Below are positions 21,686-25,077 of a stretch of 64,000 nucleotides of DNA, in pieces. The DNA is taken from NCBI RefSeq assembly GCF_000718095.1, contig NZ_JOEI01000008.1:62001-126000 (forward strand), in the 5' to 3' direction. The number at the start of each line of letters is the position of its first letter. The stretch's first letter is position 1. This DNA comes from Streptomyces scopuliridis RB72. Its GTDB lineage: Bacteria > Actinomycetota > Actinomycetes > Streptomycetales > Streptomycetaceae. The notes under the pieces were generated by a model. It did not search any database. It had not been told where the DNA came from and worked only from the letters and a program-made list of their open reading frames with translations. Both the position numbers and the translations under genes were made by a program.

Positions 21686-22345
21686 TCAGGACCTTAGATA
21701 GGTCAGCACGGCCAGCACCCGGCGGTGATCCCCATCACTAGGGGAAAGCCCAAGCTTCAGAAAGATATTGCTGACGTGTTTCTCGACCGCGCCGTCGCTC
21801 ACGACCAGCTGCCTGGCGACCGCCGAGTTCGTCCGCCCCTCGGCCATCAGCCCGAGGACCTCACGCTCGCGGGGCGTCAGCCCCGCCAGCACGTCCTGCT
21901 TCCGGCTCCGGCCCAGCAACTGGGCGACCACCTCGGGGTCCAGCGCGGTCCCGCCCCTGGCCACCCGTACCACGGCGTCCACGAACTCCCGGACCTCGGC
22001 CACCCGGTCCTTGAGCAGATACCCCACGCCCCGGCTGCTGCCGGCCAGCAGCTCGGTGGCGTACTGCTCCTCGACGTACTGCGAGAGCACCAGCACCCCG
22101 ATCCCCGGATGGTCCCGGCGCAGCCGCACGGCGGCCCGTACCCCCTCGTCGGTGTGGGTCGGCGGCATCCGTACGTCCGCGACCACCACGTCCGGCAGCG
22201 CGCCCTGGTCCGCCAGATCGCCCACGGTCTTGATGAGCGCTTCCCCGTCACCGACACCGGCGACGACATCGTGCCCGCGGTCGGTCAGCAGCCGGGTCAG
22301 GCCCTCCCGAAGCAGCACTGAGTCCTCGGCGATGACGACCCGCAC
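21686..22345 (-). CDS. NarL/LuxR-family response regulator
   Basis: The 219-residue regulator has an N-terminal receiver domain with acidic pocket in [13 protein letters not shown], the phospho-acceptor Asp57 in VVADVRMPP, and [10 protein letters not shown] with the switch region. The C-terminal LuxR-type helix-turn-helix is [40 protein letters not shown]. The frame extends to 22510, but GTG 22345 is chosen because GGAGG precedes it and the family N-terminus follows; GTG 22357 is possible. Two histidine kinase genes lie directly upstream, so it is their presumed output. Confidence 0.92.
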
Positions 22346-22533
22346 TCTGTCCTCCACGATGCCGTAGCCCCCATTGGTGAGATCTGTCGCCTGTGCCCTC
22401 CAGCATCCCAGTATTCGGATCGCTCCGCGCCCACCCGCCAGGAAATGGGCCCACCGCCCGGCGACAGCCTTCCGGGTGGGGGCACCCGGGAGACATCCCC
22501 ACGACGTCACCCCATGACGTCACTCCAGGAGCG

Positions 22534-23778
22534 TCAGCCCCGCCAGGGCAGCTCCGCGGTCACCGTCGTCGGACCGCCGGCCGGGGAGTCGATGACCAGG
22601 ATCCCGTCCACCGCGTCCAGCCGCTCCGCCAGCCCGGCCAGACCGCTGCCCGCCGTCGCGTCCGCCCCGCCCCTGCCGTCATCCGTGACCTGGAGCAGCA
22701 GCCGGTCCTGCGTCTGCCACACCTCCACCATCGCCCGGCTCGCCCTGGCGTGCTTGCTCACGTTCTGGAGCAGCTCGGAGACCGTGAAGTAGGCGATCCC
22801 CTCGATCGCGGCGGCCGGCCGGCAGGGAAGATCGACCTCCACCGTCACCGGGACCGTGCAGCGGGAGGCGATGGCGGAGAGCGCCGCGTCCAGCCCGCGG
22901 TCGGTGAGGACGGCCGGGTGGATGCCGCGCGCCAGATCGCGCACGTCGTGCAGATCGCGTTCGATCCGGCGCAGATCGGCGGCGGCCGTGTCGACCACCA
23001 CCCCCCGGTCCGACTCCAGCTCCGAGACCCGCGTGGCCAGCCGGGACGGGCCGAGCAGCCCCATCACCAGCAGCCGGTCCACGGTCGCCAGGCCGCGTAT
23101 CAGCCAGGGGCAGAAGAGCACCAGCACCAGCCCCACCACGGCGGTGGCGGCTATCTCGAACGGGGTGTCCAGGAAGAAGCCGTCCCCCGTGCCGTCGCTG
23201 TAGATCGCGATACCCGACTGGTCGAGATGGCTGGGGAACACCCAATGCCACAGCGGATACGAGAACAGCGCCCAGCCCACGGCCGAGAACGACAGGGACA
23301 CCACGAACGCGAACACCGCCCACGGGAAATGCAGGATCGCGTAGAGCAGATGGCGCCAGGACACCCCGCTCTTCAGCACCGCGCCGACCCAGGACATCAG
23401 CCCGCTCTTCGCGCCACGGGCCGGCGCCGGATCCGGCACATCGAGCCCCAGCAGCCCCCGCGCCCGTGCCCGCTCCAGCATCCCGAAGCCGCGGCAGCCG
23501 GCCAGCCCCACCGCCAGCACGGGCACCCCGAGGAAGGTGACGAGCAGCCCCGCCCCGAGCGCGATGGTCGCCATCGCGTAGCCGAACAGCACCGCGCTGA
23601 TCGGCAGGCTGAGCAGCAGATAGCCGAACTCCCGCCAGGTGCGCCCCTCGAACGGGGCGCGCAGGGCCGGCGGAAGGAAGTGGGGCCGCGGCTGCGATCC
23701 GTCATCCAAGGCCATGGGTGTGGTCCGTTCTGCGAGCGGGCTGAGGGAGAGCGGGGTGCGTGCTTCCATGTCCTCCAT
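22534..23778 (-). CDS. NarL-type sensor histidine kinase with most of its DHp domain missing
   Basis: The product is a 414-residue membrane sensor: several N-terminal hydrophobic segments (about 50-230), a helix VSELESDRGVVVDTAAADLRRIERDL, and a C-terminal HATPase domain with the N-box in VSELLQNVSKHA and a DDGRGGA G-box. The phospho-acceptor His277 is present, but LHD runs straight into RDLARGIHPAV. Normal HisKA_3 kinases have about 45-50 residues (GAQARLVAL through the second helix) between them. The deletion is in frame. Autophosphorylation through a normal four-helix bundle therefore seems impossible, unless the sequence is wrong here. The start is uncertain; ATG 23715 matches the length of its neighbour better. 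Confidence 0.85.
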   Translation of the reverse strand: MEDMEARTPLSLSPLAERTTPMALDDGSQPRPHFLPPALRAPFEGRTWREFGYLLLSLPISAVLFGYAMATIALGAGLLVTFLGVPVLAVGLAGCRGFGMLERARARGLLGLDVPDPAPARGAKSGLMSWVGAVLKSGVSWRHLLYAILHFPWAVFAFVVSLSFSAVGWALFSYPLWHWVFPSHLDQSGIAIYSDGTGDGFFLDTPFEIAATAVVGLVLVLFCPWLIRGLATVDRLLVMGLLGPSRLATRVSELESDRGVVVDTAAADLRRIERDLHDVRDLARGIHPAVLTDRGLDAALSAIASRCTVPVTVEVDLPCRPAAAIEGIAYFTVSELLQNVSKHARASRAMVEVWQTQDRLLLQVTDDGRGGADATAGSGLAGLAERLDAVDGILVIDSPAGGPTTVTAELPWRG

Positions 23779-23880
23779 GCTCCCGGGGCCGGAGCGTCCG
23801 CACCATGAGGCCGGTCTCCGTCTTCACCCTGGGGTTTTCCCCACCCCCGAGGTGTGGTCGCGCCCGCGCGGGGCCGCGCC

Positions 23881-24020
23881 CAGCCCTTCCCGCGCCGCCG
23901 GGCCCAGCCCTTGCCGCGCCGCCGGGCTCAGCCCTTGCCGCGCCGCCGGGCTCAGCCCTTGCCGCGCCGCCGGGCTCAGCCCTTGCCGCGCCGCCGGGCT
24001 CAGCCCTTGCCGCGCCGCCG
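23881..24020. repeat. 24-bp tandem repeat array, five copies plus a partial sixth
   Basis: Units start at 23881, 23905, 23929, 23953 and 23977, and the partial sixth at 24001 is the last codons of the downstream-facing histidine kinase gene. Copies 2-5 are identical; copy 1 has two differences. Each unit carries the kinase gene's TGA, so the array looks like repeated duplication of its 3' end outwards. In another frame it encodes an octapeptide repeat of the type GLSPAARQ. Confidence 0.95.
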
Positions 24021-25077
24021 CCACGGCAGCTCCGCCGTGACGATCGTCGGCCCGCCGGCCGGGGATTCGAGGACGAACAGGCCGTCGACCGCGCCGAGCC
24101 GCTCGGACAGCCCGGCCATGCCCGTACCGCCGTCCAGCCGCGCGCCGCCGCGCCCGTCGTCCTGCACCTGGATCAGCAGCCGGTCGTCCCGCCGCCACAC
24201 ATCCACCGACGCCATCCGCGCCGCGCTGTGCTTGCTGACGTTCTGGAGCAGCTCGGAGACCGTGAAATACGCGATGCCCTCGATCGCCTCGGCGGGCCGC
24301 TCGTCCAGATCCACGGTCACCTTCACCGGGACCGTGCAGCGGGAGGCGATGGCGGAGAGCGCCGCGTCCAGCCCGCGGTCGGTGAGGACGGCCGGGTGGA
24401 TGCCGCGCGCCAGATCGCGCAATGGCCAGGGCCACCAGCCGGGCCTGTGCGCCGTCGTGCAGATCGCGTTCGATCCGGCGCAGATCGGCGGCGGCCGTGT
24501 CGACCACCACCCCCCGGTCCGACTCCAGCTCCGCGATCCGCCGCTCCAGCTCGTCGGAGGGCGAGAGCAGCCCCCGCACCATCGCCCGGTCGACATTGGT
24601 GAGCCCGCGCGCCACATAGGGGAGGACCGGCCAGAACACGAAGAGACCGGTCAGCGTGACGGCGAACGTCAGCACACCCCAGGGCAGCCGGATGAACTCG
24701 TACAGCACGGTCCGCCACGCCACCGGATCCTTCAGCCCGGCCCATATCCGGCCGAGCAGTCCGTCGGGGCGCCGGCCCGGGCCGTGCAGCGGGCTCGGCT
24801 CGTCGATCCGTACCCCGAGCAGCGCGCGCGCCCGCGCCCGCTCCGCCCGGCCGAGCAGCCGCGCCCCCGCGAGACCGCACACCAGCCACGGCAGCCCGAT
24901 CACCGTCACCGAAAGCCCCGCGCCGGTGGAGACCGTGACCACCACATAGACAAAGCCGACCAGGGCAGCCGGAAGGTTCACCAGGAGATGCGCGATCTCC
25001 TTCCAGGTGTGCCGGTCGAACGCGAACCGCGCGGGTGGCGGTCGGTCATCGTCGGGGAGGCTGCTGCTCACGGTCAT
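24000..25077 (-). pseudogene. Second sensor histidine kinase, frameshifted by a deletion in the DHp domain
   Basis: This is a paralogue of the kinase at 22534-23778, from ATG 25077 (MTVSSSLPDDD). The first part (to about 24424) encodes membrane segments and the H-box ERDLHDGAQARLVALA. The rest of HisKA_3 is then missing and the frame changes: the RDLARGIHPAVLTDRG segment and the whole HATPase domain (VSELLQNVSKHS, DDGRGGA, ending RRRGKG) continue in a different frame to a TGA at 24000. The original frame stays open into the 24-bp repeats. The missing piece is about 35-40 residues and not a multiple of three. Unless this is an assembly error, no intact kinase is made. Confidence 0.85.

Follow-up and report, generated by a model that had tools for sequence, protein, structure and literature searches.

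In the assembly of Streptomyces scopuliridis RB72, two adjoining sensor kinase genes, here called K1 and K2, are each without most of the DHp coding sequence. We conclude that both junctions are almost certainly mis-joins made during short-read assembly and that the organism itself would carry two intact kinases. The genes lie in the window, that is, the whole 64,000-nt stretch of contig NZ_JOEI01000008.1 (positions 62,001 to 126,000) analysed here. Together with the neighbouring response regulator gene they would form an ordinary AbrC1/AbrC2/AbrC3-type system. In the mechanism that we propose, apparent gene conversion would keep a block of some 310 nt, with the DHp segment inside it, identical, or nearly so, in the two adjacent genes. 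A short-read assembler of the de Bruijn type, working with a 99-nt overlap, would have been unable to pass through this block, and the ends on each side would have been joined directly, with the loss of 132 nt from K1 and of 101 nt from K2, the latter with a frameshift. The two junctions share their right edge, contig ends of the same assembly carry a 99-nt signature, the kinases of relatives are intact and some relatives have a long repeat at this place. From this we infer that the missing stretch is a near-identical repeat here too, which type of assembler was used and by what route the ends were joined.

The conclusion removes a false claim, namely that of a Streptomyces strain lacking both AbrC kinases, and the two kinases annotated in this genome should be regarded as products of misassembly. 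The locus is one where short-read drafts can fail, because neighbouring kinase genes are nearly identical in one domain. What deserves to be followed up is that two kinases with one regulator apparently undergo gene conversion in their DHp block.

The kinase genes and their junctions

The three genes lie on the minus strand in the order K2, K1, regulator (25077 to 21686), which is an HK-HK-RR arrangement. K2, the AbrC1-like sensor kinase gene, runs from 25077 down to 24000 in the list of open reading frames and is assembled in two frames: a 5' part up to the junction (24422..25077) and a 3' part containing the HATPase_c half (24000..24421). As assembled, the AbrC2-like K1 occupies 22534..23778; its start is more likely at 23715 than at 23778, since the listed relatives begin there. 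The AbrC3-like response regulator (21686..22510), with Response_reg and GerE domains, is probably listed too long at its 5' end, given that Response_reg starts only at residue 58. The neighbouring genes, recognised by eye in the translated reading frames, are presumably korAB and nuoA, which they resemble. In addition, two tandem repeats were seen near the gene ends. At the 3' end of K2, a 24-nt array (23873-24020; 6.2 copies, 97% matches) repeats in each unit the last codons and the stop of K2; a comparable ending occurs a single time in the close relative L039. An imperfect 13-nt repeat (22497-22540; 3.3 copies) extends from the end of K1 into the gap before the regulator gene.

K1 and K2 are similar to each other, and in a Pfam search the Sensor domain (PF13796) was present in K1 and in the 5' piece of K2. 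HATPase_c scored 27.1 bits in K1, above the cut-off of 26.4, and 25.6 bits, slightly below it, in the 3' piece of K2. The same search found HisKA_3 (PF07730) neither in K1 nor in either piece of K2 as assembled, and none of the 40 matches in a genome-wide scan for this domain fell at the K1/K2 locus, an absence that we attribute to the assembly. Elsewhere in the genome, a weak partial HisKA_3 match covers positions 1-38 of 68 in another gene (contig C35, L129:2774-2887), where a script found no fitting LHD motif.

In K1, the junction (22943..22944) reads RDLHD-V-RDLARGIHP. Measured from RDLHD to RDLARGIHP, the spacing is 18 nt, compared with 150 nt in relatives, so that 132 nt (44 codons) of DHp coding sequence are absent in frame. 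In K2 (24421..24422), RDLHDGAQARLVALA is followed by a frame change into RDLARGIHP. Here the spacing is 49 nt, again compared with 150 nt in relatives, and 101 nt of DHp coding sequence are missing; past the junction the frame is open through to the stop and no further damage was noticed. A sequence-only reading of the window had described this pair of junctions, in frame in K1 and with a frame change in K2, and the letters bear it out. Its further statement that the breakpoints differ holds for the left ones; on the right, K1 and K2 break at the same base (22943 in K1, 24421 in K2). Likewise, it held that both kinases had lost the DHp domain, which agrees with the missing HisKA_3 matches and goes too far in one respect. 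The H-box histidine of RDLHD is still encoded in both genes, as H277 in K1 and H207 in K2, so that what is missing is the remaining part of the DHp helices and not the phospho-acceptor residue.

The long identical stretches that the same reading saw in the two genes flank the breakpoints on both sides. To the right, the 99 nt from the junction to the point where K1 and K2 diverge are the same in both (22845..22943 and 24323..24421), which places the shared right edge exactly 99 nt before the divergence. To the left, 81 nt are identical (22944..23024 and 24453..24533), and a further 31 nt of DHp sequence are retained in K2 only (24422..24452), ending about 2 nt before position +49 as counted from the H-box. 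The left edges accordingly stand at 81 nt in K1 and 112 nt in K2.

The locus in relatives and in other drafts

Among 80 named loci from relatives, both H-boxes were seen in 78; of the other two, L043 lies on a contig whose start is about 250 nt ahead of the K1 match, and L068 gave a single motif. The sequence-only reading had proposed a length comparison with the kinases of other Streptomyces. In K1, each of the 78 loci has the 150-nt spacing. In K2, 64 loci have 150 nt as well, 13 have 156 or 159 nt and one is interrupted by a run of N, so the DHp segment is intact in K1 in 78/78 and in K2 in 77/78. In another set of loci (L010-L031), which may overlap the named ones, the K1 spacing was 150 nt in 22 of 22. 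At the protein level, 7974 homologues were found, and 118 of the 120 listed carry PF07730, the other two being the window's own protein. The closest non-self protein among these 120, P0003 from S. scopuliridis, is identical at 379 of 393 aligned residues; its alignment with K1 contains 44 gap columns, and it has the 44 residues that K1 is without.

We also searched by sequence pattern a genus sample of 392 genomes, the window's own genome included. The K2-junction pattern matched that genome only. The K1-junction pattern matched it and one other, G356, at two places. We rejected G356 as a second truncated genome, since an extra CACGAC within the DHp coding sequence explains these matches and the genome has two matches to the intact pattern. 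With this false positive set aside, the pattern search found neither truncated junction in any of the remaining 391 genomes. The intact pattern matched 211 of the 392, the window's genome not among them; the patterns demand particular codons and therefore cannot detect every gene, and our guess is that strict codon choice, rather than gene loss, accounts for the genomes that it did not match.

These surveys bear on the idea that the pair is natural, that is, that K1 and K2 are ATP-binding sensor proteins without DHp, kept by selection in another role. K1 as assembled is indeed an open frame of 414 amino acids with Sensor and HATPase_c domains. However, K2 is frameshifted, the H-box histidine is still present, and such a pair is absent both from the 78 named relatives that show two H-boxes and, as far as the patterns can tell, from the remaining 391 genomes. 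The named relatives and the pattern searches rule out a widespread natural variant of this kind, and we give the natural-pair reading as a whole next to no credence.

The one exception among the relatives lies at the very same spot. In S. atratus JCM 3386 (L044), K2 contains 158 N (L044:4123-4280) where the window's K2 junction lies. Counted from the first base of the H-box codons, the run sets in after 54 nt; it stops 3 nt short of the CGC of RDLARG, and to its right 104 nt are common to K1 and K2. In the window, where 99 nt are shared, the right edge lies 2 nt before that CGC, 1 nt away from the edge in S. atratus. Another draft, G372, has two contigs that end in the kinase repeat block and overlap by 615 nt: with contig C22 (L125) read in the coding sense, its last 615 nt recur as the beginning of contig C64 (L126), which starts at most 1 nt from the left edge of the block. 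In G128, which has the kinases on two contigs, no contig end lies inside the block.

Contig ends and the 99-nt overlap

De Bruijn graph assemblers leave an overlap of fixed length at contig ends. The genome of the window is a draft of 117 contigs, and among 28 contig termini compared, five pairs have an identical stretch of exactly 99 nt that starts at base 1 (C8/C49, C9/C7, C2/C32, C4/C15 and C11/C13). In the remaining matching pairs, the common stretch is either 88-97 nt long and slightly offset or 66-69 nt long and in the opposite sense. The termini C32, C3 (end), C25, C28 and C49 had been chosen on earlier matches, and three of the five 99-nt pairs involve such pre-matched ends. The 15 contig starts that were chosen blind yielded the pairs C4/C15 and C11/C13. 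For the end of C8, no match elsewhere was found. The starts of C9, C7 and C25 and the end of C3 have a common terminal sequence with few differences, perhaps from a multi-copy element such as an rRNA operon.

The repeat content of the assembly points to the same length. In 2,439,901 bases, which contained no N, we counted 46 exact repeat pairs of at least 60 nt, 22 of at least 80 nt, 13 of at least 90 nt, one of at least 100 nt and none of at least 110 nt, these counts including the K1/K2 pair itself, contig-end overlaps and the 24-nt tandem array of the window. Twelve pairs fall within 90-99 nt, and the longest measures 101 nt. As a control we took 400 kb of a one-contig genome (G015), which had no exact repeat of at least 80 nt. 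Since this control is also without long repeats, their absence alone proves little, and the argument rests on the pile-up at 90-99 nt together with the contig ends.

The right halves of both junctions look like contig starts in this assembly, because their shared edge stands at 99 nt, the same length as the contig-end overlap. An edge at this distance from the divergence point was found on the right side only, where it is 99 nt in both genes. The left edges, at 81 and 112 nt, do not have this length, and trimming or extension must be assumed there. Close inspection of another candidate pair and of five short repeats turned up no second proven mis-join. The aligned parts of two paralogous carboxylase-like genes at about 183 and 188 kb of C9 differ by about 200 nt in spacing; they were not counted as a mis-join because the length difference does not adjoin the 99-nt repeat.

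The sequence-only reading had offered two accounts of the junctions, and they fare very differently. In the first, two biological deletions had left non-phosphorylating sensors. One could picture K2 losing 101 nt and passing the lesion to K1 by gene conversion, with a further loss of 31 nt that restored the frame, or else two independent deletions; the strain would then have no working AbrC kinase. Gene conversion between K1 and K2 is suggested in relatives, the 31-nt difference does restore the K1 frame, and an in-frame abrC1-abrC2 fusion, LinR, is known in S. coelicolor from the available part of a review (PMC9739842). However, real deletions would need a right breakpoint exactly 99 nt from the divergence in both genes, which is the contig-end overlap length. 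Moreover, the patterns found neither junction in the other 391 genomes, and no other damage was noticed in K2, its frame being open to the stop after the junction. With the same right edge in both genes, the 99-nt overlap and the intact relatives, the deletion account is not supported, and we hold it to be very improbable. The second account, loss of near-identical sequence in assembly, is strongly supported by the 99-nt edge, the five contig-end pairs, the intact relatives and the lack of either junction in 391 genomes.

A shared block and the AbrC system

If the normal spacing of 150 nt is assumed, the shared flanks in the window delimit a block that extends from -65 to +247 relative to the H-box. 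Six of the 78 relatives (L051, L053, L055, L057, L063 and L066) have one exact K1/K2 repeat of 272-406 nt that runs through the H-box and spans the DHp segment, with edges at -59 to -65 and at +209 to +341, similar to the block of the window. The DHp spacing is intact in all six, including L051 (SirexAA-E), a complete-sequence record. An exact tract of at least 99 nt is present in 12 of the 78. Of the 22 longest listed tracts, 10 stop at +49, about 2 nt beyond the left edge of K2 in the window. Thus, the true repeat in S. scopuliridis may be continuous over about 312 nt or divided into two pieces by a single difference, and each of these would be longer than 99 nt. Outside the blocks of the window, the ungapped K1/K2 identity is 0.37 upstream and 0.77 downstream. 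The six long-tract relatives have 0.27-0.37 and 0.73-0.98, and length differences may account for part of the low values upstream.

We compared third codon positions in the 64 K1/K2 pairs of equal spacing. Within genomes, K1 and K2 agree at 0.81 of these positions from -63 to 0, at 0.79 in the DHp segment and at 0.80 from +150 to +250, while K1 genes of different genomes agree at 0.66, 0.65 and 0.58 in the same three blocks. From +250 to +400, the values are 0.70 within genomes and 0.67 for K1 between genomes, and beyond +400 the order reverses (0.53 and 0.56). In the five blocks in order, the K2 of the same genome was the closest of all to K1 in 18, 15, 23, 5 and 0 of the 64 genomes. This pattern is consistent with gene conversion that, in some of the genomes, has the block as its centre. 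We consider it likely that AbrC1 and AbrC2 of Streptomyces undergo recurrent gene conversion within a stretch that begins about 63 nt upstream of the H-box and ends about 250 nt downstream of it, so that diverging sensors would keep one shared phosphotransfer and dimerization module for a single regulator. Gene conversion is not mentioned in the AbrC1/AbrC2 literature that we searched.

Repeat collapse and mis-joins happen in short-read draft assemblies. The window resembles such cases in having an edge at a fixed overlap length, the same overlap at contig ends and, in two other drafts, a gap or contig ends at this repeat. It differs in that no N stands at the join, so it reads as two clean deletions.

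As for the genes themselves, K2, K1 and the regulator match an AbrC1/AbrC2/AbrC3-type system in gene order and domains. In S. coelicolor these genes are SCO4598, SCO4597 and SCO4596, in the gene order given in the available part of PMC9739842. According to the portions of the papers at hand, the cytoplasmic parts of AbrC1 and AbrC2 autophosphorylate, with H214 in AbrC1 and H270 in AbrC2 (PMC4428217), the system controls antibiotic production and differentiation (PMC4428217, PMC3098853), and its one regulator promotes antibiotic production (PMC4428217, PMC3098853, PMC9739842). The locus of the window likewise has two adjoining kinases and a NarL/LuxR-type regulator, HK-HK-RR on one strand. In the relative L072, counted from possible starts, the H-box histidine is residue 214 in the K2-type and 269 in the K1-type kinase, compared with H214 and H270 in the available text of PMC4428217, and the H-box histidines of K1 and K2 are equated with these by motif and not by alignment to the S. 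coelicolor proteins. Unlike the S. coelicolor kinases, K1 and K2 as assembled are without most of HisKA_3, a difference that we attribute to the assembly. The closest known parallel in form is LinR, described in section 8 of the review PMC9739842, in its available part, as a chimeric AbrC1-AbrC2 kinase of S. coelicolor that arises from an in-frame abrC1-abrC2 fusion. There too a deletion affects both abrC1 and abrC2; in LinR, however, one deletion fuses both genes in frame, whereas the genes of the window stay separate, each without an internal piece.
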